This document shows, in pieces, positions 4,107-26,516 of a stretch of 30,525 bases of DNA. The translations under genes were made by a program, and so were the position numbers. The notes under the pieces are model-generated. The model had not been told where the DNA came from. It saw only the letters and a program-made list of their open reading frames with translations, and made no database searches. Where the stretch lies: IMG/VR virus record IMGVR_UViG_3300037010_000192, positions 1-30,525 of that record; one strand, given 5' to 3'. How positions within the stretch are numbered: position 1 is the first letter of the stretch; each line of letters opens with the position of its first letter. The stretch is from a virus.

Positions 4107-4586
4107 TTACCGTTGTTTATCTAGTTCTTGGGTAACGCCTATCGCCCATTCGTGACAGGCGTTGGCGTATCTTGCTGCGTCGTCAGCTTCTCTCGCCATG
4201 TTGACAAGAAGGTTGATACTCTCTCCTGAAAGTTCGGTTGTGGCGGTTGGGCTTGCACACTTGCAGGTAGAACCGGTTTTGGGCACGGCGCTACTACGGG
4301 CACTGGTGGACTGCTGCAACCGCTCAACGTCAGCAGCAAGCCTAATATTTTCGGCATGTGCGTCATTAATTGCTTTTGCTTGTACTGCATTGTTTCCCTC
4401 TATCTGTGCGTTCAATTGGTCAATATTATGTTCTTTGGCTATGGTAATTTTAGCTTGGTTGCTATACGCCTCATTCCATACGGCATGTAACGAATCAATC
4501 TCGGCGTTAAGCCTTAGCCCGTTTATATACCAACCAGCAAAGAAACCGATAGCCATTGCTGCAACAGTTGAATAAATCCACATCAA
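4107..4586 (-). CDS. Rz: Rz-like inner-membrane spanin (i-spanin)
   Basis: A 159-residue protein with one N-terminal membrane helix (about residues 3-22, IYSTVAAMAIGFFAGWYI) and no cleavage site. It is followed by a long periplasmic helical segment (about 28-95) and a C-terminal part with several cysteines (TCKC, NACHEW). This is the Rz architecture: an inner-membrane anchored subunit that, with the lipoprotein Rz1, spans the periplasm and fuses the two membranes at the end of lysis. It sits directly after the endolysin (4-bp overlap), and the partner is encoded inside it in another frame, the classic embedded Rz/Rz1 arrangement. Confidence 0.9.
   Translation of the reverse strand: MMWIYSTVAAMAIGFFAGWYINGLRLNAEIDSLHAVWNEAYSNQAKITIAKEHNIDQLNAQIEGNNAVQAKAINDAHAENIRLAADVERLQQSTSARSSAVPKTGSTCKCASPTATTELSGESINLLVNMAREADDAARYANACHEWAIGVTQELDKQR
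4139..4390 (-). CDS. Rz1: Rz1-like outer-membrane spanin lipoprotein (o-spanin), nested in Rz
   Basis: This 83-residue ORF lies entirely within Rz in a different frame. Residues 13-24 form a short lipoprotein signal ending in a lipobox (LTLSGC, cysteine 25). A proline-rich stretch follows (SSPPVPVVAPCPKPVLPAS), as in lambda Rz1. The mature protein would be an outer-membrane lipoprotein that binds the Rz C-terminus. The ATG at 4390 is preceded by GAGGG at good spacing; internal ATGs at 4366 and 4357 would also leave a usable signal. The lipobox and proline-rich signature in the expected nested position make this a strong call despite its length. Confidence 0.88.
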   Translation of the reverse strand: MQYKQKQLMTHMPKILGLLLTLSGCSSPPVPVVAPCPKPVLPASVQAQPPQPNFQERVSTFLSTWREKLTTQQDTPTPVTNGR

Positions 4587-5170
4587 TACAGTCCTTCGTA
4601 TTTCTTAGCACGTTCGTATACCAGCTTAATATAACCACGGTTAATATCATATGGGCTTTGGCCGTACCCTTTGAATGCTTTGTGGCTTTTAATGCTGCTT
4701 AACTCGACATTGCTGTACCACACATTTGGGTTACAGTTAGGTATAATGCTACACTTTAATCGTTCTTTACGCAAGCCACCAATGCCGCCGTTATAGGCGG
4801 ATAGCGTCATTCGATAATTATCATCCGGGGTTGATGCGCCCCTAATCTCGCTGCTTAGGTCGTGCATATAAACAACTAACCCTCGTAGCTGATAACGTGG
4901 GGTGTATGGGTTCTTAAAAGACCAATCACCGAATACGTTTGGATGGTTCTTTTTAAGTTCTTCTATGGCATCGAATGCAGCCGTCTTTGTGAACTGTGCC
5001 AAACCAGCGCCGAACTCTCTATCTGTTTTTAGTGTGGCGTTTACCTTCCACCCACTCTCTTGTTCTACTTGCCCAGCAAGTAGCGTAGGGTTGGGGTGGT
5101 CTTTCCAATACGCTACCTGCTCTTGTCTAAGAACAGGTAGCAGTGGCATTGCTAAGTCAATGACCGACAT
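4583..5170 (-). CDS. Endolysin, lytic-transglycosylase type
   Basis: A 195-residue muralytic enzyme with the lysozyme-like SLT fold. It shows the catalytic-glutamate region QVEQESGW (about residues 35-42), then GAGLAQFTKTAAFDA (about 53-67) and the AYNGGIGGLRKE motif (about 127-138), the signature set of soluble lytic transglycosylases (E-S, GLxQ/GAGLAQ, AYNxG). It would cut the glycan backbone of peptidoglycan. No signal peptide or membrane segment is seen, so release probably depends on the holin directly upstream. The ATG at 5170 overlaps the holin end by 14 bp and the stop overlaps Rz, giving a tight lysis cassette. Confidence 0.88.
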   Translation of the reverse strand: MSVIDLAMPLLPVLRQEQVAYWKDHPNPTLLAGQVEQESGWKVNATLKTDREFGAGLAQFTKTAAFDAIEELKKNHPNVFGDWSFKNPYTPRYQLRGLVVYMHDLSSEIRGASTPDDNYRMTLSAYNGGIGGLRKERLKCSIIPNCNPNVWYSNVELSSIKSHKAFKGYGQSPYDINRGYIKLVYERAKKYEGLY

Positions 5171-5435
5171 GGATTAGCGCCGCTAAGACGAGTGCAAACG
5201 CACTAATCATGATCGACATGCCAAGGAAAACAAGTCCCTTATCCGCACCATCGTCGATCAGCTTTCCCATATCCACGTACGGCATTAATATTTTTCTAAT
5301 GATGTGCGTAAATCCGGCAATTAAGAGCACAATAGACAAAACGCTTACATACTCAATCAATAAATCTAGTTTAATTAAACCTAGTATTACCGCGGGTACT
5401 ACGAGTAACCACAAATAACGGGCATCAAATTTCAT
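5157..5435 (-). CDS. Holin-like small membrane protein
   Basis: A 92-residue protein with three hydrophobic stretches: about residues 7-24 (YLWLLVVPAVILGLI), 28-47 (YVSVLSIVLLIAGFTHII) and 67-88 (GLVFLGMSIMISAFALVLAALI). They are separated by a basic/acidic loop (RKILMPYVDMGKLIDDG). It starts at an ATG after a good AAGGAG site and overlaps the endolysin start. Length, hydropathy and position just before the endolysin fit a holin that permeabilises the inner membrane. The family cannot be named from sequence alone; it could also be a pinholin-like or accessory membrane protein. Confidence 0.75.
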   Translation of the reverse strand: MKFDARYLWLLVVPAVILGLIKLDLLIEYVSVLSIVLLIAGFTHIIRKILMPYVDMGKLIDDGADKGLVFLGMSIMISAFALVLAALIHVGH

Positions 5436-5447
5436 ACGTTCTCCTTT

Positions 5448-5762
5448 TTAGCCAAAGTGCTTTACAATGAATTGAGATATAAAAGCCAAAATAACAGAGC
5501 CTATCGTTCCGTATGTAATAACCTTAGTCTTAAACGTCGAGAAGTCGCTAGACTTTGTGTCCAGCGAGTCTATGCGCTTATGGGCACGCTCGATCTCTTC
5601 CATCATTCTATCGAGTTTGTTCAGTATCTTTTCTTGTCTTAGCTCGCTTTGATGGGAGCTTTCATTGTTGGCTCTCATCTCTTCGACAAGTTTTTCTACT
5701 TGCTTCGTAAGCCTAAACATGTCGGAGCTTAATAACTTCAAATCAACTTCGACCTGGTCCAC
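5448..5762 (-). CDS. XhlA-like coiled-coil protein with C-terminal membrane anchor
   Basis: A 104-residue, highly charged coiled coil (about residues 5-75, LKLLSSDMFRLTKQVEKLVEEM and later MMEEIERAHKRIDSLD) is followed by one membrane helix at the C-terminus (about 82-100, YGTIGSVILAFISQFIV). This layout matches haemolysin XhlA-type proteins, which accompany holins and endolysins and help disrupt the membrane. The start is a GTG at 5762 directly after a strong AGGAGGG site. It is the first gene of the lysis block and ends 12 bp before the holin. An antiholin role is possible but not shown by the sequence. Confidence 0.65.
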   Translation of the reverse strand: MDQVEVDLKLLSSDMFRLTKQVEKLVEEMRANNESSHQSELRQEKILNKLDRMMEEIERAHKRIDSLDTKSSDFSTFKTKVITYGTIGSVILAFISQFIVKHFG

Positions 5763-5794
5763 TGCACCCTCCTAGCGGATTTAATTTCGAATAT

Positions 5795-5800
5795 ATTATA
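5795..5800 (-). promoter_or_regulatory. Perfect -10 box before the lysis cassette
   Basis: TATAAT lies on the minus strand in the 46-bp AT-rich gap between the AsnB-like gene and the XhlA-like gene. No convincing -35 is present at 17-18 bp (AAAGAA or TAAAGA), and there is no TGn extension. It may be a weak or activator-dependent lysis promoter, or chance in AT-rich DNA. Confidence 0.3.
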
Positions 5801-5808
5801 GTTTACCA

Positions 5809-6747
5809 TCAATTAGCTTCTTTACTTGAATTTTTAGCTACAAGTTCCTGTAGAGCTCTCGATCTTATAATCAAGTCATTGCCCGATCTTCTAGGCCTCA
5901 AGGAAGGTACTTTTGTCTTGTTGGTTCTATAAGCGTCGTCACCATTAGCAGCAAATATGTAATCTTTTAGCGGTTGTTTATACTGATTGTAATCGAGAAA
6001 ACTAGAATTGGCTAATGAATTATTCATTGCCCATTGTTGGAAGTAATCAGTATCATAAAAATGCTCATATGACGCCGTCTCTAATCCACCAAAGTGATTC
6101 TTTATTCTTGACAATGCTTTAGCATATTTTAAGGTAAAGTTTATTGCCCAAACATACTGACCAGCCGTGCAAGTTTCTAGGTTATCAACTACTTGTGAAA
6201 CAATCGGGTCAGTGTAAACCAAAAAACCCGCCGGGATATAATCTTTATATGGAGAGACACGTGTTTCATAAGACATTTTTGAAAACATATGGGAGCCAAA
6301 GCACTGATCGCCACCTTCGCCTGTAACAATTACAGAATTAGCAAAATCAATTGTTGGTATTGTAGTGAATATATCAGACCAACTAACACCAGGAACAGAG
6401 TTAGTTGTGATTTTAGCAGCTAATGCAGGATACTCTCTGTAAGAAGAATCAGACATAAGAACTGTAAACTCAATGTTAGCAGCAACTAAGGCATAAAAGG
6501 CAGTAGTGCTATCAATACCACCAGACCACATTAAATAAATGGTTTTTCCGGCTAAACTATCTTTTAACTCATTAGCTCTTCTATTGATTAAAACAGAAAT
6601 GTCATCCGTAAGAAGCGGGTCTTTGGCCGGAATAGGATGCAGCATTGTAGACGGAATTACCGAAGAACTAGAAAAATATCCGGTCCTATCGATCGGGTAT
6701 ACGGGAAAGAAAGTCTTAAAAGCCGCATAAAATTCAGACTCAGTCAT
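5809..6747 (-). CDS. Stand-alone asparagine-synthetase-type ATP pyrophosphatase domain protein
   Basis: This 312-residue protein has a PP-loop, YLMWSGGIDSTT (about residues 71-82), and a second motif GEGGDQCFGS (about 143-152). The second motif matches the GEGxDExFGGY loop of the synthetase domain of asparagine synthetase B rather than QueC, ThiI or TilS. The N-terminal glutamine-hydrolysing domain is absent and no catalytic Cys2 is seen. By family knowledge such domains adenylate a carboxylate and then form an amide bond. The substrate here cannot be read. The start overlaps the upstream zinc-peptidase gene by 8 bp, so the two are probably translated together. Base composition looks more AT-rich than the head genes, suggesting separate acquisition. 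It is not an obvious virion or lysis part and is best treated as an accessory gene. Confidence 0.75.
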   Translation of the reverse strand: MTESEFYAAFKTFFPVYPIDRTGYFSSSSVIPSTMLHPIPAKDPLLTDDISVLINRRANELKDSLAGKTIYLMWSGGIDSTTAFYALVAANIEFTVLMSDSSYREYPALAAKITTNSVPGVSWSDIFTTIPTIDFANSVIVTGEGGDQCFGSHMFSKMSYETRVSPYKDYIPAGFLVYTDPIVSQVVDNLETCTAGQYVWAINFTLKYAKALSRIKNHFGGLETASYEHFYDTDYFQQWAMNNSLANSSFLDYNQYKQPLKDYIFAANGDDAYRTNKTKVPSLRPRRSGNDLIIRSRALQELVAKNSSKEAN

Positions 6748-7201
6748 AATTATTCCCTAAGCCGCGTGTAATCCACCGCTGAATCTCGGTTTTTGCCTGC
6801 TCTTTGGTAATATCTAGCTTGTAAGATTCGTCCGCTAGGTCATCCGCCATATCATCTAAATTAGCGCCAGCTTCAACCTGCGCAGCGTACGCTTGTGCCT
6901 CGGCTTCTAACCGGTAGCTACGTACGAATAGATAGAGTAAACCGTGTACCCCTATCCCGGCGACAGCTACTGGCGCTAGGGAATAACCAATACTATCGTA
7001 AGTTCCGGCAACTAATAGCGCGGAAAACGACAGCCAAATGGCTAATACCTTATACCACTGCTTAACATGTGTGTACTCATGGTTATGAACGCCAACATCG
7101 TCCCTTAGTTCTGGTCTAATACGCACTACAAACGCATTAGTACGGCCGTTTACGTTTGGTGGTAGATTGTCAGTGTAAATAGTTAAGTGGGGAAGCATCA
7201 T
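6740..7201 (-). CDS. Small membrane-associated HExxH zinc metallopeptidase
   Basis: A 153-residue protein with the zincin motif NHEYTHVKQW (about residues 40-49) and a downstream ExxAY (RLEAEAQAY, about 97-105), which would supply the third zinc ligand. Two hydrophobic segments lie between them (about 52-68 and 76-94). Small phage proteins with a D-x-G-x-x-x-HExTHxxQW core and RxxAExxAY are a recurring family of unknown target. The active site would face the membrane surface. Its stop overlaps the start of the AsnB-like gene, and its own start overlaps the preceding gene by 4 bp, so all three are in one translational unit. Substrate unknown; a lysis-related or host-modifying role is speculation. 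Confidence 0.65.
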   Translation of the reverse strand: MMLPHLTIYTDNLPPNVNGRTNAFVVRIRPELRDDVGVHNHEYTHVKQWYKVLAIWLSFSALLVAGTYDSIGYSLAPVAVAGIGVHGLLYLFVRSYRLEAEAQAYAAQVEAGANLDDMADDLADESYKLDITKEQAKTEIQRWITRGLGNNYD

Positions 7202-7509
7202 ATCTCAACCCCACCAAACTTGCCTTGTAAAGACTTATACATAGTTACATAACCACGTTCAGCAGCGTTGTATTCTACTGAATGGTTAAACTCAGTAATT
7301 TTATTTTTACGAGTTGTTTCTGGAACTGCGGGCACATAGCCTTCTTTGCCCTCTTCGCCAATCGCTGCTACAGCGGGGGTAGTTTCAGTCGTGTATACAC
7401 CGACTAAAGCAGTCCAGCCTTCTTTTGATGCACCCCATAAGCGGTCAATACGGATGATTGCATCAGGAACTTGTACATTGTATAGGTCATAGGTTGTTTT
7501 AATAGACAT
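7198..7509 (-). CDS. Hypothetical small phage protein
   Basis: A 103-residue protein of mixed strand/loop character, no membrane segment, no recognised motif. The middle has a Glu/Gly/Pro/Ala-rich loop (AAIGEEGKEGYVPAVPE). It has a clear GGAGC ribosome site before the ATG at 7509 and overlaps the peptidase gene. Its place after the receptor-binding fibre, in a string of small ORFs, fits a fibre chaperone or small virion protein, but the sequence does not show which. Confidence 0.6.
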   Translation of the reverse strand: MSIKTTYDLYNVQVPDAIIRIDRLWGASKEGWTALVGVYTTETTPAVAAIGEEGKEGYVPAVPETTRKNKITEFNHSVEYNAAERGYVTMYKSLQGKFGGVEI

Positions 7510-7538
7510 AATAATTGCTCCTTGGTCTTAAACATTAA

Positions 7539-7613
7539 TTAACCAGGGGCCAATGCAGGAGAACCTACATTCGCTTTCACGGAATTAATTTGGTCAAGTG
7601 AATACACAATCAT
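7539..7613 (-). CDS. Possible 24-residue micro-ORF coupled to the preceding gene
   Basis: The ORF starts at an ATG whose ATGA overlaps the stop of the 120-residue gene. An AGGAGA site sits about 8 nt upstream, inside that gene's last codons. It encodes 24 residues starting MIVYSLDQINS and ending ALAPG, then stops 29 bp before the next gene. The coupled start and the fact that it fills an otherwise empty gap support translation; its shortness and lack of comparison data leave it uncertain. Confidence 0.35.
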   Translation of the reverse strand: MIVYSLDQINSVKANVGSPALAPG

Positions 7614-8005: not shown

Positions 8006-9802
8006 TTACGCAAGTGACACCTCGTACGCTGTCAAAGCTCTATCGTAGACACGGAAGTTCGAGATGTGGCCGTTGAACATGGTTGTTCCGTAAATGTCTG
8101 TTGGGTCATATGAACCTATTCTTACGGTAGAAACACTGCTGTTACAAGTTGATGTAATTCTGCCGTCAGTATCTGCTTTGAAACCAGTTTGAATACCATT
8201 TTTATATGTGTAGTGTCCGGCGTTACTAACTACTTGCGCTAGTCTATACGGTGTTTTTGCCGATACAGCCCCGCCCGAAATGCTACTTGACTCAGTTGTA
8301 CTAGTTACTGATGAATAACAATACATTCCAGAAACAACAAGCATACCAATATGGTCACTGCCAGAGGGGTATAGTGCCCATAACCATTGGTTATATCCAG
8401 TATCGCCTAACACATCAACATCACATAAAACACTAATAACGCCGTTCGTTTCGATGTTAGGAATATTACCAGCTCTAGTGAAATTCAATATGTCAGCAGC
8501 TCTAGTAGCTGTACTACTAGTAGTAGGAATATATGATGTAGCAAAAGGTAATGCTTCTAGCTGTGCCCCGTAAATATATACACCATTTCCAGCAACATCT
8601 GTTGCAGAGTAGCTATATATAACGTTAGCGTAACTAGTTGCTGTAGTAGTTACTGTAAAAGTCATACTAATTCTTACCCAACCATTAGCTAACTCTACTA
8701 CACTTTTACTCTGTATGTTATTATGTGAGTCAGTAAAAGTTTTTGTATCGAAGTTATATCTTAAGTCTCTATTAGCACCATCTGAAAAATAATAGCTTGG
8801 ATATAAGACTCTTATAAAAGAATCTTCTGCTTTCTTAGCATATACAGAAGCCGTATAAGTTGTACCAGCCGTTAATGTAAATGGATTAACGAATACGTTC
8901 TCCTCAGCACCGGTGGTGGTTTTATAAAAATGAAATGCAGAATTTGCTACACCATCAGGGCCTGTGACATTCTGGGTAACTGTACCATTTTGAAGATTCC
9001 AGTTATCAAATTGATTGGAATTAGTAAATAAATTTGTACTAGAAACTTCATTCAAGTAACCTTGCTTTTCAAATCGTGGAGTATCTACGCCAGCAACCTG
9101 TAACATGCCATATCTATCTATATATGTGGCAGTAGACGCTCTTGTGAACGTTACATTACCAACGCCGGACTTCATAGCAAGTGAATTTTTAAGGGGCAAG
9201 TCAAACAACGGTGCATTAATATTACCGATAGCCAACAACAAATCTGAATTGTTTGCTTTTGAGTTACCGGCTACCGTAACAAATTCAGTTGTAGCCAACT
9301 GAGTAGTATTCGTACCTGGAGCGGCGGTCGGTGCTGTCGGTGTACCAGTTAATGCCGGCGAAGCAGTCGGCGCAAAGTAAGTGACGTCGTGTCCGTCCAA
9401 TAAATCGGCATCTAGCCCAGAACCAGAGCCATCAATCGTTTTCAAGTCGGTCAACAACTGGGCTGTAGTGACGTCGCCAGTGCGTCCTGATACTGAAATC
9501 ACACGGTTAGCGTACGCAAGACTGTAGTTGGACACCAATTCACCAGTGTTACGCGCTAGACTACGGGTATAGCCGGCAACAGGTACAATCGTGTAAGACT
9601 GGCTGTTTGCTGTAGCTCCTAGGTAAGGCGAAGCAAGGCTTAGACTGTTCATGCTCGTAACCGCGGCAATCTCGTAAAGCTTACCGTCCGGTGCTAATAA
9701 CGCCTCGCCTGCGTCCACGTTGTCGATAAATGACGTGCCCGTTGCATTTACGGTGGTACTGCCGTTGACGACATTAACCGTACCTGTTGAGTACCAAGCC
9801 AT
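8006..9802 (-). CDS. Receptor-binding tail fibre/spike with LamG-like C-terminus
   Basis: A 598-residue modular protein. Residues 1-95 (WYSTGTVNVVNGSTTVNATG) resemble a virion-anchoring N-terminal domain shared by many phage fibres. Residues about 125-175 carry the DADLLDGHDVTYFAP and ASPALTGTPTAP...ATTEFV linker typical of trimeric phage fibres. Residues about 205-430 hold the common phage carbohydrate-binding-like region (FTRASTATYIDRYGMLQ, TNLFTNSNQFDNW). The last 150 residues form a concanavalin/LamG-like domain ending FNGHISNFRVYDRALTAYEV. The role is host recognition at the tail. The part encoding residues after about 200 looks more AT-rich than the 5' part, consistent with exchange of the binding module. 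It starts with ATG after AGAGGA. Confidence 0.82.
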   Translation of the reverse strand: MAWYSTGTVNVVNGSTTVNATGTSFIDNVDAGEALLAPDGKLYEIAAVTSMNSLSLASPYLGATANSQSYTIVPVAGYTRSLARNTGELVSNYSLAYANRVISVSGRTGDVTTAQLLTDLKTIDGSGSGLDADLLDGHDVTYFAPTASPALTGTPTAPTAAPGTNTTQLATTEFVTVAGNSKANNSDLLLAIGNINAPLFDLPLKNSLAMKSGVGNVTFTRASTATYIDRYGMLQVAGVDTPRFEKQGYLNEVSSTNLFTNSNQFDNWNLQNGTVTQNVTGPDGVANSAFHFYKTTTGAEENVFVNPFTLTAGTTYTASVYAKKAEDSFIRVLYPSYYFSDGANRDLRYNFDTKTFTDSHNNIQSKSVVELANGWVRISMTFTVTTTATSYANVIYSYSATDVAGNGVYIYGAQLEALPFATSYIPTTSSTATRAADILNFTRAGNIPNIETNGVISVLCDVDVLGDTGYNQWLWALYPSGSDHIGMLVVSGMYCYSSVTSTTESSSISGGAVSAKTPYRLAQVVSNAGHYTYKNGIQTGFKADTDGRITSTCNSSVSTVRIGSYDPTDIYGTTMFNGHISNFRVYDRALTAYEVSLA

Positions 9803-9820: not shown

Positions 9821-10459
9821 TTAAGCGGTTGTGGTTGCGCGAGTAGTCGAGGCTACGTCAAGGCCGAGTTGGTTGTAGAACATCTGTCCGTAGTTTTGTG
9901 CTAAGTTAGCGTCTCCTACAGAAGCGTCTTTGCTATATGCGCGGTATAGTAAATAGTCAACAATCAAACCCGCGTAAGTGTCATCTAAACTAATCAAGTC
10001 GCTAGTGCTAGTGTGTGCAGTTGGGATACGGGCATACTGGATGGATATACTTGTTCCTGCCTGCGGCGCTGGGTATAAGTAAAACACCTTGGGCGAGTCT
10101 TTTTCATAGACGTAATACTTCGCTGCCTGATCTGACGTGGTGGCGTTGACTGTATGCCAGTCTGGGTTTTGGCTGTCTAATACGTGACGCTCGACAGGGC
10201 GAACAGCGCGTTTGCTACCGCTCTCGTTACGAACAACACTGATTAGATATGCGCCGTCTGCCGGTAATGTTTGTCGGGAGTCCGCGTTTGTTGAGATGTT
10301 TGCTGTTACTGAGTTGGCATCTGGACGGTGGCGCACAATCTCACGATACGCGCTGGCAGTCCAGCCTAAGAACTCGGTGTCTGACCAGCGAATAGCATCC
10401 TTATCTTGTAGGATGGTTCTAGCTTGGTCGATAAGGTTTTGTACGGTTACTGTTGCCAC
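9821..10459 (-). CDS. Head-tail adaptor protein (DUF6682-like)
   Basis: A 212-residue protein opening with LIDQARTILQDKDAIRWSDTEFLGW. It continues with a helical core and a beta segment containing VFYLYPAP, then YARIPTAHTSTSDLISLDDTYAGLIVDYLLYRAYSKD. This is the pattern of the phage adaptor family annotated DUF6682, which docks on the portal ring below the head. The GTG start at 10459 is chosen because AGGAGAG precedes it at normal spacing. It follows the giant virion protein by 12 bp. The family call rests on recalled similarity, not a search. Confidence 0.68.
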   Translation of the reverse strand: MATVTVQNLIDQARTILQDKDAIRWSDTEFLGWTASAYREIVRHRPDANSVTANISTNADSRQTLPADGAYLISVVRNESGSKRAVRPVERHVLDSQNPDWHTVNATTSDQAAKYYVYEKDSPKVFYLYPAPQAGTSISIQYARIPTAHTSTSDLISLDDTYAGLIVDYLLYRAYSKDASVGDANLAQNYGQMFYNQLGLDVASTTRATTTA

Positions 10460-10471
10460 TTGTGCGCTCTC

Positions 10472-13400
10472 CTAGTTTCTTCCTTTATACACAGATTTTG
10501 CTCGCTTGTCAAGCACAGATGCGCCGTACAGAAGAGCTGCCGCTTCAAGCGCATTGTCGACATATCCTGTCGGGTTTTGTGCCGCGCGCTCCAGGATAGA
10601 CACAGATGGCATCCAGTTGGCGATCTGCGTCGGGCCCCCTGGTGAAGTAAGCATATTCGAGTACGCCTCGCCGCCGAAAGCACCTCCGGCTTGGTAGCCA
10701 AGTGCTGTAAGTACCGCATCTTGTGGAGACATGGCCATCAACGCCTGCGGTGGTAGTGGGTTACCTGTAACGGCCGCTGGCAGCGCGTATTTGATAAGGC
10801 TGGCTGCATACAGACCTAGTAACGAAACCGCTGTACCTAAGCCGACAAAGTACATAGTCTGCTTGAGTGCTTCGCCGCCGTTCCCCTCCTTAGCGTTGTC
10901 CCAAATACCTTGGAACAGGTGGTTACCAACCGCGTAGAAGAAACCCTTAAACATCCAAGCCAAACGGCCAATCGGATGATCCGCCCACGGTGTTTTATCC
11001 ATCTGCGTTACATGAGCTACACGTGAGTCCATAAACGCCTTCATCGCCGCCGTGCCAGCTTTGACGTCTGCGATTGCCTGCGGGCTGGCGCCTGCGTCGA
11101 TAAGGTCCTGCTCAGACGGCTGACCAGCTTTTCTCCAACGTGACCATTGTTCTGCTGTTACACCTGCGCGTTCAAGGCGCTTCTGTGCTGCGGCCTTCTC
11201 TTTAGCCGAGACTTGTGGGTCATGTACGAACTGTGCGGCTTCGTCGAGGATAGCCTCTGCTGCTGAGAGAGCCACACGGCGGTTGAAGTTGGTGAACGCA
11301 TGAATACCAGTAGAACGCATGAAACGTGACATAAGCGCGTTTGCCTTGCCCTCAATACCAGAGATTGACTTAACATCAGACATGGCATCAATAGCGAAGT
11401 CGTGTAACGAATCCACGTACATACCTAACCGTGTATAACGCAGTTCCTTCTCGCGTTTATTCAACTTAGATACTTCATCGAAGCTGGCGATCTTGCGTAA
11501 TTCAGATGCCAGCGCTTTGAAACCGGCCGAGCGTTCGCGTGCATCCTTACCGGCCGCTATTTGCCAAGCCATGTCCCCGAAAGACATGAGCATGATAGTA
11601 GACATAGTAAGCATGGTAGCTGACGCGCGCAATACTGCACCAATCGGACGGAACCACTCGTAACGTGATTTTAAGTGCAGGCGGCCCATAGAGCCGTTGA
11701 TGGCGTCTACGAAGTGTACCATATCTTCCGGGCTTTTCTTGCCGAGTTCTTTTGCTACTGTAGCAATCTCGCTACCTTCTTTTAATTCAAGTAGCCCAGT
11801 GGTCAGGTTGTGCTGATAAGGGCCAAACTTATCCACATACTGTGTGTGCATGATCGTACGTTTTAAGTAGACCGGCACCACTGAACCAGGGTCTTCCATG
11901 ATGTAATCACGGAACACCAGGTTAGACATGTTCGCCAGATTACGTTGTTTCTGGTGGCCAGACTTACCGAGACCCACACTAATAGAACCCTGCTGGTACA
12001 CGTCTTTGTCTTGTGTCTCCATAATCGAGTCGTAGATACGTTCTGCATCGCGCTCGTCTACTTTTAGACGTTCCATCATGTCTTCGATGAACTTACCTTT
12101 GTTCTTGCGGAGAAACTCGAAATTCCAAATACGCGGAGCATAGACGGCGCGTTTACGTGCCAGCGTGTAGTCGCCACCAGAAGCTACTTTACGGAGCGTG
12201 CCGTTGGTTGTGTCCATCACGTAGTTACCCGTTCCCGGTGTGCGCTCGAACATGGTCATCGCTTTTGCATACGCACGTTCGTTCGGCTTGGTGGCGTCTA
12301 GGTGGTACGCCATCGCAGCAGCATTCAGTTCCTTGACGTAAGTAGGTTCGAGTTCGCGGTCATAGAAATCGGCCAGACTTTTACGTATCTTTTTAGCCGC
12401 TGCTTGTAGGTCCGGTCTACCCTTTAGGCGGTCAGCTTTAGACCCATCTACTACTTCATACAGAATGTGGTGCCACACCAATTTCGCGTCCTTTAGGCTT
12501 AGGTGTGTAAGTGGTGACAATATCATGTGCATATACTCGTTCTGCTTCTGATCCACTGTAGAAGTCATCTTGAGTAGTTTATCGCGGATGTTATCAATAC
12601 TTTTAGCCAAGGCCTCGTTGCCTGCTTTACGCTGTGCTTCAGCAATCGAGCCGATAGTGCCTGTGTGTGAACGAAACCAAGCAGCGATGGCTAGACCAGT
12701 ACCTGAACCGGCCAGAGCATCAATCGTATCAACGCCATCGACTATCGCCTTGGCCGGAGACTTCAGCATCTTTTTGGAACCATCTAGGAACGCCTTACGT
12801 AGAGCGAGGCCTGCTTTTACTGTGTCGCTCGCCATAGAATATTTGGCCGTGCCAGTACCCGCTACCTGTGCATTGTTAATGGCCGCATTAGCTAGCGCGA
12901 CCAAATCCTTAGCGGTGAAATTGGGGGCTAAGAATCCAAAACCATTCTGCTTTAGCCATGCCTTGACCTTGGCCACGATGCCAGAAAGCAATGATGGTCT
13001 AGCGCCTGCCTGCTCCATGCCCTCGATAAAGTAGGCTACCGATTCCGACTTAGATGGTTTGCCTTCCGCTTGTGTGGCGCGTTCTATGGCAGCTTGTGCT
13101 ATCTCATCGCCATTAGCTGCTAGGCGTTCTACCGTGTTGTATATCTCGTCGAACTGTTTGCCCAAAACTTCCTCTAGACCGAAGTGAGACCCGATCTCGT
13201 GCAATAACTTAGCGGCTGCTTCGCCTTTATTCATATTGCTTGCATACAAAGTAACCGTGCCGTCTGGTCTAATGATCGCTGCTGCGTTGCTGCGTTCGCC
13301 GTCGCGCGGCGCGTCTTCGATAGTCAGCTTGCCGCTAGAGAGTAGGGCTTGAATAGGTAGTTTCTTAAAACGACTCACTAGGTCAGCTACAACTTCTTCT

Positions 13401-16042
13401 TTAGAGGTGTAGCGATCGCCTTTAGTGTCTGACTCGCTATACTGGTTTAATTCGTCAAACGTGGGGTTGCGTAGGCCGCTGTCTTCCTGTTCGCGCGGTG
13501 CTCGCTCCGTTTTCTCGTTTAGATCATAGCCTGCCGAAGGCTTACCTAGCTTCTTAAACTTGCCTTCTCGTTGCCCGGCCTCGATCATGGCGCGGCGTGC
13601 TGCACGTTCTTCATTCTCAAACATGTGCGGCGCTTTTTTGTATATGTCACTGTCTAGGAGTGCTTGGTACGCTGCTTGTGCTTCGGCGTGCGTCAAAACG
13701 CGGTTTGTGTCTTGTAGAGGAGCAACGTCTCGAACAGGAACGGCTTCTTGTACAGGAGCGGCTTCTTGTACAGGAGCGACGTCTCGTATAGGAGCGGCTT
13801 CTTGTACAGGAGCAACGTCTCGAACAGGAGCGGCTTCTTGTACAGGAGCGGCTTCTTGGACAGGAGCGGCTTCTCGTAGAGGAGCGACGTCTCGTAGAGG
13901 AGCGGCGTCTCGTAGAGGAGCGACGTCTCGTAGAGGAGCGGCGTCTCGTAGAGGAGCGGCGTCTCGTAGAGGAGCGGCTTCTTGTACAGGAGCGACGTCT
14001 CGTATAGGAGCAACGTCTCGAACAGGAGCGGCTTCTTGTACAGGAGCGGCTTCTTGTACAGGGGCTATTTCGTGCGTTGGCTTACTGCCTGTGAGAATGT
14101 CCAATGCCTGTTGCGCATAGACTTTAGACGTACCTTTCAGTTTCTTAGTCAACTCAGTAACAGCGTGTTCGAGCGTGGGTGCTGCGGCGACAATCTTAGC
14201 CGCTGAGGTGCTAGGCTTGAGCGTTGCGGCTACGGCTGCCTTGCCCTCCAAGAATCTCGCTTTGTTATCCGCCGCCTGCTGGATAGTCTGCTTTGCAGCC
14301 TGACGTTTCATATCCATGAGTACGGCGTTATCGTCTTGCTGTGCGATAGCCTCGCGGCGTGCTTGTATCTCCTGCACCACGTCGCTAGGTAGTCTAGTGT
14401 TGTTCCGTTGTGGTACTACTCGTACCTGCGATGGGTCTGTCTTTACTATCAGCCCGTCGGTAATATCTGCGGCTGGCGTAGGACGCCCGTCTGGACCAAA
14501 CAACGCTGGTTGGCCGCGCTGGTGCATCGGTGTCGGTGCAGCTTCCTGTACCTGCTCTGGGTCGGCATTATACGAATACTCGCCAGTGAACATGTCTCGG
14601 TGCTGGCCTGGGAGTGCTTCTTCTTTAAGACGCGCCTCTCTTGCCATGTTAGCATCGGCTGCTGCCGCTTCTTGTCTATCCAATTCGTTGTAGGTTTCGC
14701 CTACCTCACGGCGCGCTGCCATCTGGTGCGCTAACTCTTTATCCCGGCGATCTTGATCTAACATCAAGGCGATCTGGGTGCGTTCTGCCGCGTCAGTAGC
14801 AGATCGTTGTCCTTCACTAGAGAAAGGCGTACTCGCTGGCGCCGGCTCGATTGTTTTGCCTGTGTTGTATGATGGGTCAACCATTGTAGCGATACTACGG
14901 GCCGCTCGCTTGATAGCGTCGTTAGACCATGTAGGTGCGTCTGCTTCCGTTGGCGCTACATGCGCTAGAGCTAAGGCTGCCACGTCTGGAGTAACACCGA
15001 AATCGCTGGCTAGACGGTGTTCAGCGAACTTATTGGCCAACTTGCTAACTGGCAACGAATCTACGAATGCGTCTAGTGACTGTACCGCGTTATCGAGCAC
15101 GTGTTGTTCTGTCGGTGCTACGTCGCGTGGCGGCACGCCTAGCCCTAAAAGTTCCTCCGGCCCGGTCAGGCGTAGACGCTCCTCTGGCGCTTGTAGCCCT
15201 AACCGTTTGTCCGGAGCTGGTAATGCTAATAGCGCCGGCTTGTCCTGTTCTGGCTGCGGCGCCTCTCCTTGAGGCACAGACAACAAAGTAGGTCCTGCAA
15301 TGGTGCCTGCGGTTAGCGCACCTATCTCGGCGGCGCGGTCGCGGTCGTATGTAAGGGTTGGGTTGTCCCACGCACCTTCGTACGCCGTGCGTTGGTTGTT
15401 TAATGTCTGCCCCCATTCCTTCGCTGCTTCCTCTGGGATGGTGCCAAGTCTCGCCAAACGATTCCCATGTAAAAGCGCCAACGGTGTTAGTGAATCAAGA
15501 GCGGTGTTCTCCGTAGCTGTTATCAATGCGTTATCGCGAGCCTCGTCAGGCGACATGCCCGCGGCGCGGTTCATCTGGTACCCTTCGCTCACATGCTGTG
15601 GATATGAGTATAAGGAGGAGCCGGCGACGACCCCCGCCATCTCGCCGGCAGCAGCGCCGCGTCCTGCCATACCCAACGCGGTGACGCCGAGTTTGGCCGC
15701 ACGACCGAAAGGCGTTGCGGCAGCGATGTTACCTACTAGGTTCGGTACTTGGGCCAGAACTTGTCCAGCGGTGTCGTCTGCCGGCGGCGCATAGCCTTTG
15801 CCTCGCTCGATCCACGAGGCCATTTTCTCGCTATTGTCACGTAGGCTATTGTTTAGACTCGCGTCGGCGTCGGCGATAATACCTAAACCGCTTAACATAC
15901 TGTCGGCTGTAGCGGCCGCGCCGTAGTTAAGTGTTTCTCCTACCGTGTTGCCATAACGGTTGTTGAAGTCGATGGCCTGCGCTGACGGTCTGACACTTGC
16001 TTCTTGGAACGGCTGTGGTATGGTAGGTAGGTATCTCTGCAT
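10472..16042 (-). CDS. Giant internal virion / polyvalent protein (1,856 residues) with HExxxH zincin-like motif
   Basis: The largest gene. Residues 1-260 form an Ala/Gly-rich partly hydrophobic domain typical of ejected phage virion proteins. About 300-650 is a charged helical region. Residues 660-779 are 20 six-residue repeats (APVQEA, APVRDV, APLRDA variants). About 947-952 contains LLHEIGSHFGLEEVLG, an HExxxH variant seen in large phage polyvalent proteins, followed by a Glu/Ser-rich helix (SKSESVAYFIEGME). About 1120-1700 is a long helical region resembling polyvalent-protein-associated (LPD-type) domains. Near residue 1755 is a membrane-like segment (VGLGTAVSLLGLYAASLI). Expected role: packaged in the head and ejected with DNA, forming part of the envelope-crossing channel and possibly acting on host targets. 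The ATG at 16042 follows AAGGAAA. A virion RNA polymerase was considered; no such motif was found. Confidence 0.7.
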   Translation of the reverse strand: MQRYLPTIPQPFQEASVRPSAQAIDFNNRYGNTVGETLNYGAAATADSMLSGLGIIADADASLNNSLRDNSEKMASWIERGKGYAPPADDTAGQVLAQVPNLVGNIAAATPFGRAAKLGVTALGMAGRGAAAGEMAGVVAGSSLYSYPQHVSEGYQMNRAAGMSPDEARDNALITATENTALDSLTPLALLHGNRLARLGTIPEEAAKEWGQTLNNQRTAYEGAWDNPTLTYDRDRAAEIGALTAGTIAGPTLLSVPQGEAPQPEQDKPALLALPAPDKRLGLQAPEERLRLTGPEELLGLGVPPRDVAPTEQHVLDNAVQSLDAFVDSLPVSKLANKFAEHRLASDFGVTPDVAALALAHVAPTEADAPTWSNDAIKRAARSIATMVDPSYNTGKTIEPAPASTPFSSEGQRSATDAAERTQIALMLDQDRRDKELAHQMAARREVGETYNELDRQEAAAADANMAREARLKEEALPGQHRDMFTGEYSYNADPEQVQEAAPTPMHQRGQPALFGPDGRPTPAADITDGLIVKTDPSQVRVVPQRNNTRLPSDVVQEIQARREAIAQQDDNAVLMDMKRQAAKQTIQQAADNKARFLEGKAAVAATLKPSTSAAKIVAAAPTLEHAVTELTKKLKGTSKVYAQQALDILTGSKPTHEIAPVQEAAPVQEAAPVRDVAPIRDVAPVQEAAPLRDAAPLRDAAPLRDVAPLRDAAPLRDVAPLREAAPVQEAAPVQEAAPVRDVAPVQEAAPIRDVAPVQEAAPVQEAVPVRDVAPLQDTNRVLTHAEAQAAYQALLDSDIYKKAPHMFENEERAARRAMIEAGQREGKFKKLGKPSAGYDLNEKTERAPREQEDSGLRNPTFDELNQYSESDTKGDRYTSKEEVVADLVSRFKKLPIQALLSSGKLTIEDAPRDGERSNAAAIIRPDGTVTLYASNMNKGEAAAKLLHEIGSHFGLEEVLGKQFDEIYNTVERLAANGDEIAQAAIERATQAEGKPSKSESVAYFIEGMEQAGARPSLLSGIVAKVKAWLKQNGFGFLAPNFTAKDLVALANAAINNAQVAGTGTAKYSMASDTVKAGLALRKAFLDGSKKMLKSPAKAIVDGVDTIDALAGSGTGLAIAAWFRSHTGTIGSIAEAQRKAGNEALAKSIDNIRDKLLKMTSTVDQKQNEYMHMILSPLTHLSLKDAKLVWHHILYEVVDGSKADRLKGRPDLQAAAKKIRKSLADFYDRELEPTYVKELNAAAMAYHLDATKPNERAYAKAMTMFERTPGTGNYVMDTTNGTLRKVASGGDYTLARKRAVYAPRIWNFEFLRKNKGKFIEDMMERLKVDERDAERIYDSIMETQDKDVYQQGSISVGLGKSGHQKQRNLANMSNLVFRDYIMEDPGSVVPVYLKRTIMHTQYVDKFGPYQHNLTTGLLELKEGSEIATVAKELGKKSPEDMVHFVDAINGSMGRLHLKSRYEWFRPIGAVLRASATMLTMSTIMLMSFGDMAWQIAAGKDARERSAGFKALASELRKIASFDEVSKLNKREKELRYTRLGMYVDSLHDFAIDAMSDVKSISGIEGKANALMSRFMRSTGIHAFTNFNRRVALSAAEAILDEAAQFVHDPQVSAKEKAAAQKRLERAGVTAEQWSRWRKAGQPSEQDLIDAGASPQAIADVKAGTAAMKAFMDSRVAHVTQMDKTPWADHPIGRLAWMFKGFFYAVGNHLFQGIWDNAKEGNGGEALKQTMYFVGLGTAVSLLGLYAASLIKYALPAAVTGNPLPPQALMAMSPQDAVLTALGYQAGGAFGGEAYSNMLTSPGGPTQIANWMPSVSILERAAQNPTGYVDNALEAAALLYGASVLDKRAKSVYKGRN
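13706..14065 (-). repeat. 20 x 18-bp in-frame repeat (AP-x-x-x-x hexapeptides) in the giant virion protein
   Basis: Exactly 360 bp divides into 20 units of 18 bp encoding hexapeptides of three main types: APVQEA, APVRDV/APIRDV and APLRDA/APLRDV. Units of the same type cluster (six consecutive APLR units in the middle), suggesting growth by slippage or unequal exchange. The encoded Pro/Ala stretch with alternating charge is probably an extended flexible linker. Confidence 0.95.
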
Positions 16043-19271: not shown

Positions 19272-19701
19272 CCCATACTCCTAAATTTAATAACGTATCT
19301 GGCTTCATACGGCGTGCCCAACCTTTACGGCGCGATATGCCGACGATATTCTGTGCGCCTAGTTGTGGTGCAATGGCCTTCAAGAAATCTATCAATGCGT
19401 CGGTAGCGGTCACGTGCTTCCGCGCCATATACATTGCAATAATGTGCATGGCCGTAAAGGTGTCGTATGGTGACTTAGTGACGTGGTATAGAACGAAGCC
19501 TACAGGGGTACCATCAGCCAACACGACTAAGTTGCGCAAGCGCCCATCTATAGCGTGGGTTATCACCGTTTGGACGTCCAACGAATTACCGGAATGCGCG
19601 TTTACGGAAGCTAACCCCTCATACAATAAGTCGGAGTGTGGTCCGGTGATGGCGAAGTCGGCTGTGGCGACTAGGTGGTTAGGTGTTAGGCTATAGATCA
19701 T
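19264..19701 (-). CDS. GNAT-like acetyltransferase (putative)
   Basis: A 145-residue protein with a GNAT-type layout: a central strand pair around RNLVVLADGTPVGFVLYHVT (about residues 56-75), then MHIIAMYMARKHVTATDALIDFL (about 84-106), where the acetyl-CoA binding loop is expected (Y-M-A-R-K-H-V-T-A-T-D-A-L), and a terminal RRKGWARRMK. The canonical Q/RxxGxG/A is degenerate, so the call is moderate. Similar small GNAT-like proteins sit among podovirus head genes, with unknown targets. The start is coupled to the upstream peptidase by an ATGA overlap and its end overlaps the next gene, so it is inside the structural operon. Confidence 0.5.
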   Translation of the reverse strand: MIYSLTPNHLVATADFAITGPHSDLLYEGLASVNAHSGNSLDVQTVITHAIDGRLRNLVVLADGTPVGFVLYHVTKSPYDTFTAMHIIAMYMARKHVTATDALIDFLKAIAPQLGAQNIVGISRRKGWARRMKPDTLLNLGVWDV

Positions 19702-20552
19702 CGTCCCTTATACCCGTGTATCATTTTTTTCAACCTATCGATCGTTCCGAGGCTTTGGTTCTCGTGGAGTGAGTCTAGAGTATCTATATATCTTCCGGCC
19801 GGTGTGCGCGCGGTGTCGTCTAGGTTCGCCGTGTTGTAAGCGTATAAATCTGAAAGCATACTATCGAAATATCCATCGCCGACGGACTCAGAAGAACCAT
19901 AATGCTCATTAACACGTATGCCCGCTCGTGACAGTAGTTCCCTAGCCATGCCATCGGCCGTTGCCTCTGTCTCAGCTCTACCGAGTGGGAATCTGCGGAT
20001 AGCAGGCCTGTCTAGCCCGTAGTAATGGGCTCCCTCATGCGCTAACGTGTGCTCTAAGGCCTTCTCTGGTTCCTTGAAGATATCCATCGATCCCGTATAG
20101 ATATTAAAAGACTCGGGGACACCAGTTCTCGGATTCTTCATGACAGAACCAGCGACGTTGATTGGTGGTGTCGGGATTACTCGTACTTTATATGGTAGGT
20201 CTGCCTTGAGTTGTTGTGCTCTCTCCAGCGCTGCTTCTTTCGCCCCTGGGTTTCTGTTGTCGGTGTGTTCAGCGGTTAGGCGTGCCAGGTCAGCTAACCT
20301 CGCCAATGGAGAACTGTCCTCGAACTGCACGTCATTCAGCACTTTCTCAAGCACAGCGGTAGGCTGACGCATCTTGTCATAAAACTGATCTGGGTTAGCT
20401 TCGCGCAGTTGGTTATACGCATTAGCATAAGATGCTATGTTGGGTGTGCCCCCATTCATGGCGGATTGGGCATATCTCATTGCCATTGCGTCCATGCGGT
20501 CCGATATGTCGGTAGGCTGCCACTGTTGTTTTGCGTTTGGTCTAGTAGGCAT
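19698..20552 (-). CDS. HExxH zinc metallopeptidase in the head-gene block
   Basis: A 284-residue protein with TLAHEGAHYYGLDR (zinc motif HEGAH at about residues 172-176) and a downstream RAETEATADGMARELL (about 192-207), giving a plausible third ligand in E-x-x-A-x-A-D. The N-terminal 120 residues are polar and helical (YANAYNQLREANPDQFYDKM). The ATG at 20552 is preferred to a TTG six bases upstream because GGAGG is well placed. It follows the connector gene and is coupled to the acetyltransferase-like gene. It could be a virion-packaged protease or a processing enzyme; it lacks features of the known U35/S49-type prohead proteases. Target unknown. Confidence 0.62.
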   Translation of the reverse strand: MPTRPNAKQQWQPTDISDRMDAMAMRYAQSAMNGGTPNIASYANAYNQLREANPDQFYDKMRQPTAVLEKVLNDVQFEDSSPLARLADLARLTAEHTDNRNPGAKEAALERAQQLKADLPYKVRVIPTPPINVAGSVMKNPRTGVPESFNIYTGSMDIFKEPEKALEHTLAHEGAHYYGLDRPAIRRFPLGRAETEATADGMARELLSRAGIRVNEHYGSSESVGDGYFDSMLSDLYAYNTANLDDTARTPAGRYIDTLDSLHENQSLGTIDRLKKMIHGYKGR

Positions 20553-20554
20553 TA

Positions 20555-21166
20555 TCAATAACCTCCGTAGGTCGCTACTAATGCGCCATTGTTCTTAGGC
20601 CGTTTTACGCGACCCTTAGCGTAATTAAGTCCGGCCAACCAACGATTTTCGTAATACGATGCTAACTTAGGTTCGCCGAAGTCTGTCGGGGCTGCGAGTA
20701 CGCGGGATAAGGCGCCGTCTACGATGGTGTCTCGGTAGAGCGCGAAAACATCGTCTGGAATGGTAGAAGTATTAGCCGCCATCGCGCAAACAATGCGCGC
20801 GAGCCCTGTCTCCGGGATGGCCGGTGCGGGATACACCACGAGAATGTTGCCGCTTACTTGGTTATACACACGCGGCGTTCCGGCGTCTACCGCCGGCTGA
20901 ATAGCGAAAACATCGTCCGGCATGGGGTCTAGCTTCCTAGTAGACAACGTCACCCATGCTGTGCGTACAGCGACAGCGCCTGTAGGCGGGCTTAACAGTA
21001 TCTCGTTATTGCTAGGCGACACACCGATCTGTGTGTTTACCTGCCACACCTCTGCTTCGATGCAAAGAGTCTGAACCGCATCAAACAGAGCGTTCTCCAC
21101 AACGAAGTCTGGCGCCTGTTTAGCCACCAGTAAGACACGTGTTAGGAGCTGATTGATGTCGGCCAT
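20555..21166 (-). CDS. Head-tail connector / adaptor-like protein
   Basis: A 203-residue protein: N-terminal helices (INQLLTRVLLVAKQAPDFVV, AVQTLCIEAEVWQ) lead to a beta part (NEILLSPPTGAVAVRTAWVTL, NILVVYPAPAIPETG) and then helices (DDVFALYRDTIVDGALSRVL). This helix-beta-YPAP-beta-helix order parallels the 212-residue adaptor further downstream, and the first gene cluster after capsid is where a connector is expected. The ATG forms TAATG with a 17-codon micro-ORF. The role is inferred from architecture and location. Confidence 0.6.
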   Translation of the reverse strand: MADINQLLTRVLLVAKQAPDFVVENALFDAVQTLCIEAEVWQVNTQIGVSPSNNEILLSPPTGAVAVRTAWVTLSTRKLDPMPDDVFAIQPAVDAGTPRVYNQVSGNILVVYPAPAIPETGLARIVCAMAANTSTIPDDVFALYRDTIVDGALSRVLAAPTDFGEPKLASYYENRWLAGLNYAKGRVKRPKNNGALVATYGGY

Positions 21167-21489: not shown

Positions 21490-22623
21490 TTAGATTCCTA
21501 ACGCGACATACATTACAGACACACCGAAGTCTTCGCTAGTGTGGGAATACGTGCTTGTAAATACAGGCTTACGCATACCAAACATCTTACCGATAGACAC
21601 ACCGAAGTTGTTGCCGTAGTCCTGTTTTTCTTCTTCCCAATATGGAGCATCGATGTCCGCGAACGCTAACGCTTGTGCACCACAGATCAGAACATAAGCA
21701 CCTTCGACCTTGCCGTCAGAGCCAAATTTTGAACCACTAGCAGCGCCCAAAGTAGTTGGAGCATAGACTGTTTCGTGTACAACCAATCCATCTACTGTAG
21801 GGATACCGCCTTTGAAGATTTCACTGTCACGACCTACTGCCGCTGCCGCAGCGCGTAAGTTAGCCAAGAAATCTGGGTCTAACTTCAAGTTAGCCATAGA
21901 GATAGGGTCGATGAACACATGGTACGTCTCTTTACCATTGATACGGATACCTTTGATACGTTTAGATACCATGTGAGCCTTAGCCATAACCAATGCTTTA
22001 TAAGTGATCTTGTCGCTAGTAGTGACATCAGCCGTAGAAGCCGCAGTAACCAACTTAGAGTTCGCAAAGTCCCAACGAAGGCGACGTAACGCAGTAGGTG
22101 CAGTAACAGTGGAAGCGAACTCTAACAAACTAGCTTCGCCGACAGTACGCGCAGAGCCGTCTAGGTTCATCGTGTAAGGGATACCCGCTAAAGTCTGGAA
22201 CGACAATTCGTCAACGAACTTAGCCATGTTGTACGCCAAATGGTCTTTAGCAACTTCACGGAATTTTACAACCGCTTTTTGGTCAGACATACGACCTTTG
22301 TTAGCATAAGCCATACGGTACTGGTCAAACACGACTTCCATTTCTTGAGTGGTGATCGTATCTTCCTTACCACGCAACATGTTGTCACCAGCCACACCAC
22401 CAGATACTTGGTTAGGTACTAATGTGATTACTGCGCGGTTACCCTTGTTAGTAGCCTTCAATTCGCTTACGCGTTGAATCATACTGTCAGGGCCTGAGCC
22501 TAAGAAGTTGGTTACAAATGATTGGTTACGAACTTCTTTCCAAAAGTCAAAAGACCATGTACGTAACGCCGTAGCTGGTAACGCACCGAAGTCGGTACCA
22601 ACAATTAGTGGTAAACTCGCCAT
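21490..22623 (-). CDS. Major capsid protein, N4-gp56-like family
   Basis: A 377-residue protein with the landmarks of the N4 gp56 family coat proteins (HK97 fold): an N-terminal arm, RAVITLVPNQVSGGVAGDNML (E-loop region), DQYRMAYANKGRMSDQKA, LAYNMAKFVDELSFQTLAG, a central IKGIRINGKETYHVFIDP, GGIPTVDGLVVHETVYAP and VLICGAQALAFADIDAPYW. It is slightly shorter than N4 gp56 itself. It assembles the icosahedral head around the scaffold encoded upstream. The ATG follows AAGGAG. Expression is set apart from the scaffold gene by an intrinsic terminator and its own sigma70 promoter, with hairpins downstream, consistent with the need for hundreds of copies per virion. Confidence 0.88.
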   Translation of the reverse strand: MASLPLIVGTDFGALPATALRTWSFDFWKEVRNQSFVTNFLGSGPDSMIQRVSELKATNKGNRAVITLVPNQVSGGVAGDNMLRGKEDTITTQEMEVVFDQYRMAYANKGRMSDQKAVVKFREVAKDHLAYNMAKFVDELSFQTLAGIPYTMNLDGSARTVGEASLLEFASTVTAPTALRRLRWDFANSKLVTAASTADVTTSDKITYKALVMAKAHMVSKRIKGIRINGKETYHVFIDPISMANLKLDPDFLANLRAAAAAVGRDSEIFKGGIPTVDGLVVHETVYAPTTLGAASGSKFGSDGKVEGAYVLICGAQALAFADIDAPYWEEEKQDYGNNFGVSIGKMFGMRKPVFTSTYSHTSEDFGVSVMYVALGI

Positions 22624-23913: not shown

Positions 23914-24351
23914 TTATTCTCCACCATGTTTAATCAATAGTCTGTCACGCAACTCCTCGAAGTTGTCGGGAAGCGCTGTGCTCTTTTTGAGGTTATCCTT
24001 AGCCCAAATAGGCATAAGGTTACTCAAATCGTTTATCACCTCTGGGCGGTGAATCTTGTTCACAATAAACCACCGCAATGGAATTACGTGGTCTATGTGA
24101 ATTTCGTCAATAAGCTCCCAACACATGCCGTCGTGGAACGATCGTTCTACGTGCTCCATGAACTCAATATGGTCGTAGCCTAAAATGGCGCGGACTGGGA
24201 GTTTAGGACGTGGGACTTTCATAGCGCGGAACGTGCGTCCAATATTCTGGCGCACTGTCCACTTGGCCCATACCCTGCTGTTTCCCTTGCGTCGAACTTG
24301 TCGTTTCTTACGCTTGCGCTTGGTTACTTCTTCCGTCTGTAGTTCTGTCAT
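23914..24351 (-). CDS. HNH endonuclease (GYxxxE / IDHVIPL type), inserted between portal and scaffold
   Basis: A 145-residue protein with a very basic N-terminus (TKRKRKKRQVRRKGNSRVWA), then GYDHIEFMEHVERSFHDGMCWE, and the nuclease core EIHIDHVIPLRWF...LSNLMPIWAKDNLKKS, i.e. histidines in IHIDH and Asn in NL/DNLKK. This matches free-standing phage HNH nucleases. It starts 5 bp after portal and ends 1 bp before the scaffold ATG. It may act as a mobile homing-type nuclease, or as a nicking partner of the terminase as in some HNH-assisted packaging motors, though those HNH genes usually adjoin terminase. Confidence 0.8.
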   Translation of the reverse strand: MTELQTEEVTKRKRKKRQVRRKGNSRVWAKWTVRQNIGRTFRAMKVPRPKLPVRAILGYDHIEFMEHVERSFHDGMCWELIDEIHIDHVIPLRWFIVNKIHRPEVINDLSNLMPIWAKDNLKKSTALPDNFEELRDRLLIKHGGE

Positions 24352-26486: not shown

Positions 26487-26516
26487 TTTATAACACGCGG
26501 CCCACTAATATGTCAA
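26487..26516 (-). promoter_or_regulatory. Sigma70 promoter of portal, -35 overlapping HNH stop
   Basis: TTGACA (26516-26511), 18-bp spacer, TATAAA (26492-26487), with start expected near 26480. The TGA stop of the HNH gene (26515-26513) lies inside the -35 box. The -10 context TGTTATAAAG is the same as at the capsid promoter. Confidence 0.78.

Follow-up and report, generated by a model that had tools for sequence, protein, structure and literature searches.

The window, that is, the whole stretch of DNA analysed here, is a 30,525-base IMG/VR virus record and represents the late half of a tailed phage. After the tail fibre gene, the gene order is a 120-aa protein, a 103-aa protein, a membrane protein with an HExxH motif, an AsnB-like protein, a DUF2951/XhlA-like protein, a holin-like protein, an endolysin and an Rz-like protein (the last named by eye). 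The features of the window are as follows:

27183-28715: terminase-like protein, named by eye
24357-26459: portal-like protein, named by eye
21490-22623: capsid-like protein, named by eye
9821-10459: SU10-type adaptor (Pfam and PHROG matches)
8006..9802, minus strand: tail fibre or tail protein, upstream of the HExxH gene (phrog_5939 tail protein, 5.8e-57; Laminin_G_3, 1.6e-6)
7539..7613, minus strand: 24-codon ORF with an AGGAG-like site upstream
7198..7509, minus strand: 103-aa protein, upstream of the HExxH gene; same order and ~80% identical in two viral loci, L124 and L125
6740..7201, minus strand: HExxH membrane protein (zincin-like), 153 aa (phrog_13761, 4e-25)
5809..6747, minus strand: stand-alone AsnB-type PP-loop (ATP-pyrophosphatase) protein, 312 aa (motifs, homologues, fold)
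5774..6769, minus strand: segment inserted or replaced relative to L124 (996 bp in the window, 114 bp in L124)
5448..5762, minus strand: DUF2951/XhlA-like protein, downstream of the insert (phrog_276, 6e-8; DUF2951, 3.5e-5, below the cut-off)
5157..5435, minus strand: holin-like protein (phrog_8226 holin, 2.7e-5)
4583..5170, minus strand: endolysin, SLT transglycosylase-like (PF01464, 3e-5; phrog_669 endolysin, 1e-21)

Several other features were recorded. An 18-bp tandem repeat of 19.7 copies (13709-14062) lies within the gene for a 1856-aa virion protein (10472-16042) and encodes repeated peptides, among them PVQEAA and PLRDVA. The same protein carries a metalloprotease-like HEIGSH, not a strict HExxH, and the metalloprotease-like motif HEGAH occurs in a 286-aa late protein (19698-20558). 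A 96-bp tandem repeat (2.5 copies, 98% match) occupies the extreme left end of the record (1-237). Two look-alikes of small HNH-type endonuclease morons were seen by eye between the head genes (23914-24351 and 26513-27064).

The HExxH reading frame, with the motifs that the earlier note on this DNA had reported, is present: HEYTH at residues 41-45 and ExxA at E101-A104. It is a real gene and not a chance ORF, because it matches phrog_13761. Residues H41, E42, H45, E101 and A104 are invariant across nine homologues, and the HExxH motif with a conserved downstream Glu corresponds to the sequence pattern of gluzincins. A hydrophobic helix follows the HExxH motif. The structural model reached a pLDDT of 72, and the best Foldseek match was no lower than E 3.9. 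From its sequence, the protein is best seen as a putative membrane zincin of the tail/lysis cassette.

The PP-loop frame was likewise found as described, with MWSGGIDST at residues 73-81 and GEGGDQCFGS at residues 143-152, and it is also a real gene, because viral homologues match it (phmmer, 3e-43). The 312-aa protein gave nothing above the cut-off in Pfam (including PF00733) or NCBIfam and no phmmer match in the PDB; in PHROGs it gave only a 37-residue PP-loop match to the QueC-like phrog_1550 (2e-4). Among 40 members of its family, 13 matched PF00733 at E up to 1 (best 2.6e-4). An N-terminal class-II glutaminase domain with Cys1 is absent, the protein being 312 aa long with its PP-loop at residue 73, and no glutaminase ORF adjoins the gene.

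The AlphaFold model of the protein (pLDDT 86.9, pTM 0.86) was compared with the PDB using Foldseek. The top matches were carbapenam synthetase (1q15) and human ASNS, followed closely by E. coli AsnB and beta-lactam synthetase, all at moderate significance (probability 0.90-1.0, E from 2.6e-3 and worse, TM ~0.4). In BFVD, the structurally closest entries came from uncultured Caudovirales and bore the name 'Asparagine synthase' (E 3e-12). Profile-profile comparison with AsnB gave local matches around the PP-loop (E 4.6e-9 and 5.6e-8), and a global profile alignment placed GEGGDQCFGS on GEGSDEVFGG and K277 on the lysine of the E. coli AsnB RQK motif, the catalytic Lys449 (Lys450 counting Met1). 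Nitrile synthetases 9lei and 9leh were among the weak PDB sequence matches of the family profile (E 0.02). The protein combines the SGGxDS PP-loop, the GExxD motif and the AsnB-like fold (of moderate significance) that define the superfamily. The earlier description of an AsnB-type protein lacking its glutaminase domain was therefore borne out.

The two genes, both on the minus strand, overlap by 8 bp (6740-6747), as the earlier note had observed in proposing that a protease-like and a synthetase-like protein form a coupled accessory cassette. Five viral loci with relatives of the HExxH protein (82, 83, 78, 48 and 35% identical; L123-L127) were fetched, and none of the fetched stretches contained an AsnB-like gene; the close relatives (78-83% identical) sit in the same tail/lysis neighbourhood without it. 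A search of the whole records behind L123-L125, which may be fragments, with the AsnB-like family profile (alignment A1) found no AsnB-like protein either. A distant HExxH homologue is present in six Alteromonas phage records, and in the two of these loci that were opened no AsnB-like gene was annotated around it. The two genes are thus not co-conserved, and the coupling, for which the earlier note had itself named co-conservation as the check, fails.

The locus L124 allowed the junctions to be placed. Window positions 6770-7524 aligned by blastn with L124 4043-4796 (78.9%), and positions 4114-5773 with L124 4911-6569 (79.8%). The segment between them, 5774..6769, contains the AsnB-like gene and the final 10 codons of the HExxH gene. 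Because these codons lie in the non-homologous segment, the 8-bp overlap is a side effect of how the junction formed. The AsnB-like gene also has the lowest GC content (37.6%; GC3 29.7%) among the 24 genes compared, which were the main late genes. This base composition and the break in synteny with L124 uphold the accessory status that had been proposed for the PP-loop gene. It is a moron whose insertion site is the 3' end of the conserved HExxH gene, in the interval between tail fibre and lysis genes, and was either gained in the lineage of the window or lost in others, base composition favouring gain. A single cassette of the two genes is ruled out by the relatives that lack the AsnB-like gene and by the L124 synteny break; the HExxH gene is a member of a separate, conserved tail/lysis cassette, and an overlap between two phage genes does not show that they function together. 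In L124 (1-6828), the HExxH/XhlA/holin/endolysin cassette is also found behind tail genes that look P2-like by eye, and it therefore apparently moves between different tail types.

The AsnB-like protein is one of a large family whose members come from uncultivated tailed phages and from some bacteria. Searching viral contigs with a degenerate DNA pattern for MWSGGIDST identified at least 119 stretches, most of them encoding proteins alignable with the window protein, and jackhmmer started from the window protein recruited 143 proteins (alignment A1), typically 300-420 aa long. Across 87 members, R21 and WSGG-DS are present in 100%, E105 in 99%, K257 in 98%, W239 in 97%, K277 in 95%, G143 and D147 in 94%, and K279 in 93%; R21, W74-G77, D79, S80, T81, E105, K277 and K279 are all kept in 93-100%. 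The window protein carries the family signature, comprising DR-T, MWSGGIDST, E105, GExGDQ-FG, FQ-WS and K---K-YI----Y---K-K--S. In the tree it groups with cupin-linked members (L037 and L102) and with members linked to DctP-type proteins (SH-aLRT 90), the nearest being 37% identical.

A tblastn search of 50,697 phage records gave zero matches for the window protein or three other family members, and the cupin described below was likewise without a match among cultured phages. A peptide-pattern search from the single window protein found no near relatives. A scan of bacterial and archaeal genomes identified 37 bacterial loci, mostly in Bacteroidota, Verrucomicrobiota, Planctomycetota and Gammaproteobacteria, the last including Xanthomonas albilineans. 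The family is large, numbering well above one hundred loci among metagenomic viruses, and current libraries have missed it: Pfam, PHROG and NCBIfam give the window protein no curated assignment.

Some loci have further peculiarities. AsnB-like genes occur in tandem sets of two to four (L082:4535-10277, L006:2680-8255, L016:2024-5493, L050:719-5397), in which each often overlaps its own 180-240-aa companion of no recognised fold (alignments A2 and A3). These companions were considered as a split Ntn/glutaminase domain, for which PDB and Pfam searches gave no support. In Xanthomonas-type loci (L152:3029-9981, L163:3035-8928, L317, L333) Baseplate J and tail genes precede the AsnB-like gene, as in the tail region of a prophage.

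The recurrent neighbour of the AsnB-like family is a cupin-fold protein (PF07883/PF02311), with weak PDB profile matches to small cupins, BacB and DMSP lyase. A cupin gene lies within 2 kb of the AsnB-like gene in 24 of 30 bacterial members, in 11 of 58 viral members found by pattern regardless of cupin, and in 20 of 59 viral members recruited by a profile built from the closer relatives of the window protein (the two viral sets partly overlap). The cupin and AsnB-like genes often overlap by 3-21 bp. Adjacency to a cupin is therefore common in the family, not universal, and hence not defining. Searching the window ORFs of at least 40 aa with the cupin profile gave no match in the 30.5 kb; the window copy may be an orphan, or its partner cupin may lie in the unsequenced part.

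An independent scan from the cupin side recovered 475 viral loci, and the following counts rest on 80 of them: 45 had an AsnB-like gene, 25 a PAPS-reductase-like gene, 10 neither, and none both. The PAPS-reductase-like partner is itself a PP-loop protein (PF01507 + DUF3440) and is accompanied by ParB-like proteins. In a cupin tree built by a quick method and weakly supported in parts, there were at least five changes of partner, and both deep clades use both partners. Since the pairing arose repeatedly and independently, the cupin and the PP-loop enzymes appear to be functionally linked; the product is not indicated by this pattern.

Among the loci in which a cupin accompanies a ParB-like, a PAPS-reductase-like and a second ParB-like protein, with no AsnB-like gene (L239:2291-6573; also L234, L230, L249, L256, L266 and L241), several lie upstream of terminase, and L239 additionally contains a separate glutaminase-like ORF of the MCGIFG type plus one more PP-loop gene. 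Three verrucomicrobial loci (L131:3543-6987, L132, L149) carry a full-length AsnB-like protein beside the cupin and the stand-alone AsnB-like gene. This full-length protein begins with MFSVV or similar, not MCGI, and the arrangement resembles a small biosynthetic cluster.

We tentatively propose, at somewhat less than even confidence, that a PP-loop enzyme and a cupin form a two-gene module that occurs in bacteria as well as in uncultivated tailed phages, has either an AsnB-like or a PAPS-reductase/ParB-type PP-loop component, and performs some ATP-dependent modification, the window carrying an insert-borne member. The enzyme type is known. No account of the family, of its association with a cupin or of the switching of partners turned up in the libraries or in the open-access literature searched (most subscription journals were outside its scope), and an overview of jumbo phages (PMC7824862) mentions neither AsnB nor PP-loop proteins. 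The cupin pairing and the exchange between two PP-loop enzymes offer a concrete, testable pair that could lead to a new phage-borne reaction.

Taken together, the 312-aa protein is probably a stand-alone AsnB-type synthetase domain, encoded by an accessory gene and acting as an ATP-dependent amide-forming enzyme. Judging from the conserved residues, its PP-loop would adenylate a carboxylate, and an amide or related bond would then be formed with ammonia or an amine; because the glutaminase domain is absent, these would be taken from solution or from the substrate. The cupin of the relatives may act on the same substrate or product. Since the alignment with AsnB is weak beyond the PP-loop and GExGD, and TM is ~0.4, the reaction could differ, with thiolation, nitrile formation or deamidation as candidates. 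The protein would be expected to act late in infection, together with the structural genes, and its candidate targets include the tail fibre and other virion proteins as well as small molecules. The neighbours of AsnB-like genes vary widely and indicate no single pathway, PHROG and Pfam tallies of 113 neighbours having found none in common, and many viral members are without a nearby cupin.

Two more specific versions of this explanation differ in the target. The protein may be the product of an auxiliary metabolic or biosynthetic gene that forms the amide of an asparagine-like or amino-acid-derived metabolite, with the cupin as the next enzyme, a version that we regard as possible and somewhat doubtful. 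In 25 of the 122 viral members with a readable upstream gene, the AsnB-like gene follows a DctP-type solute-binding protein (e.g. L101:3919-4875, L288:3701-4672), and TctC-type proteins are found as well (L086). The Verrucomicrobia add their second, full-length AsnB-like protein to the pair, and the nearest solved fold, carbapenam synthetase, itself acts on small molecules. However, the DctP-like (TRAP) proteins have no obvious signal peptide, which makes uptake doubtful, no complete pathway is recognisable, and none of these features is present in the window.

It seems unlikely that the target is instead a tail fibre or a different virion protein, which the enzyme (with the cupin in relatives) would alter, for instance by amidating side chains or forming an isopeptide crosslink, with an effect on adsorption. 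The window copy and several closer relatives adjoin tail-fibre or late structural genes (some named by eye), a location with which late expression and a possible virion target would fit. The gene directly follows fibre-like proteins of 1370 and 1668 aa in L201 and L232, with a gap of 15-16 bp, and in L243 it comes after a Peptidase_S74 fibre protein, with further cases in L206, L295, L296 and L292; it follows Baseplate J and tail genes in the Xanthomonas loci, and many viral members overlap the upstream 180-240-aa companion. Yet the interval between tail fibre and lysis genes is a usual site for morons, so that position is weak evidence, and other members adjoin genes for DNA polymerase, Fe-S or solute-binding proteins, while most bacterial copies have no evident phage context.

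A tRNA- or nucleotide-modifying PP-loop enzyme of the QueC, TilS or PAPS-reductase type is decidedly improbable. It could account for the weak PHROG matches, to phrog_1550 and to PAPS reductase (phrog_424), and for the cupin family's alternative pairing with ParB-like genes and a PAPS-reductase-like PP-loop protein. These matches, however, span the PP-loop only; GExGDQ-FG and the C-terminal K-x-K are AsnB-type, and the fold matches favour AsnB-type enzymes. No full-length match to QueC or another nucleotide-modifying family was found; the earlier note had taken such a grouping as evidence against its reading, and beyond the short PP-loop match the protein falls into no known family of this kind.

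The earlier note had also raised, as a speculation, a lasso-type system, and had pointed to small upstream ORFs, one of them of 24 codons. The 24-codon ORF exists; none of the fetched loci has a homologue of it, not even the syntenic L124, where the neighbouring 103-aa protein is ~80% conserved and the ORF is absent, and it was rejected as a precursor peptide for that reason. None of the components of lasso biosynthesis (a precursor, B1/B2 proteins for leader recognition and peptidase activity, and a full-length AsnB-like cyclase) was found in the window, which leaves the idea without support. That the HExxH protein as protease and the AsnB-like protein as cyclase process a small precursor into a lasso peptide or another RiPP is thus extremely improbable in spite of the 8-bp overlap of their genes, given that relatives keep the HExxH gene alone, that the ORF is not conserved and no B1/B2 protein is present, and that the family partner is a cupin.

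The favoured reading, a stand-alone AsnB-type synthetase, can be set against four known systems. The PAPS-reductase-like and ParB-like phage modules, which we take to be IbrA/IbrB-like, also combine a PP-loop enzyme with the same cupin family, and several of their loci lie just upstream of terminase; they differ in using another PP-loop family (PF01507 + DUF3440), which never occurred with an AsnB-like protein among the 80 of 475 cupin loci. AsnB-like enzymes are known to act on peptides in lasso cyclisation, C-terminal amidation and nitrile formation, the last by PesC, the nitrilobacillin nitrile synthetase (PMC13060819). The likeness to these RiPP enzymes lies in AsnB-like chemistry, whereas no precursor, leader peptidase or recognition element was found here and the relatives have a cupin partner. 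Carbapenam and beta-lactam synthetases (1q15, 1mc1) are the nearest PDB folds, at a TM of only ~0.4, and form an amide without glutamine hydrolysis; the chain of the window protein, in contrast, does not include an Ntn-like N-terminal domain, and no beta-lactam pathway genes were seen. Compared with asparagine synthetase B, the AsnB-like family lacks the glutaminase domain, and the 312-aa window protein has no Pfam or NCBIfam match, while the family keeps a DR-T motif at the N-terminus, a W-rich middle (WW-F-K-Q) and an FQ-WS block. With the C-terminal domain of that enzyme (PF00733) it shares the SGG[IL]DS PP-loop, GExxD-xFG, the aligned lysine and the AsnB-type fold.
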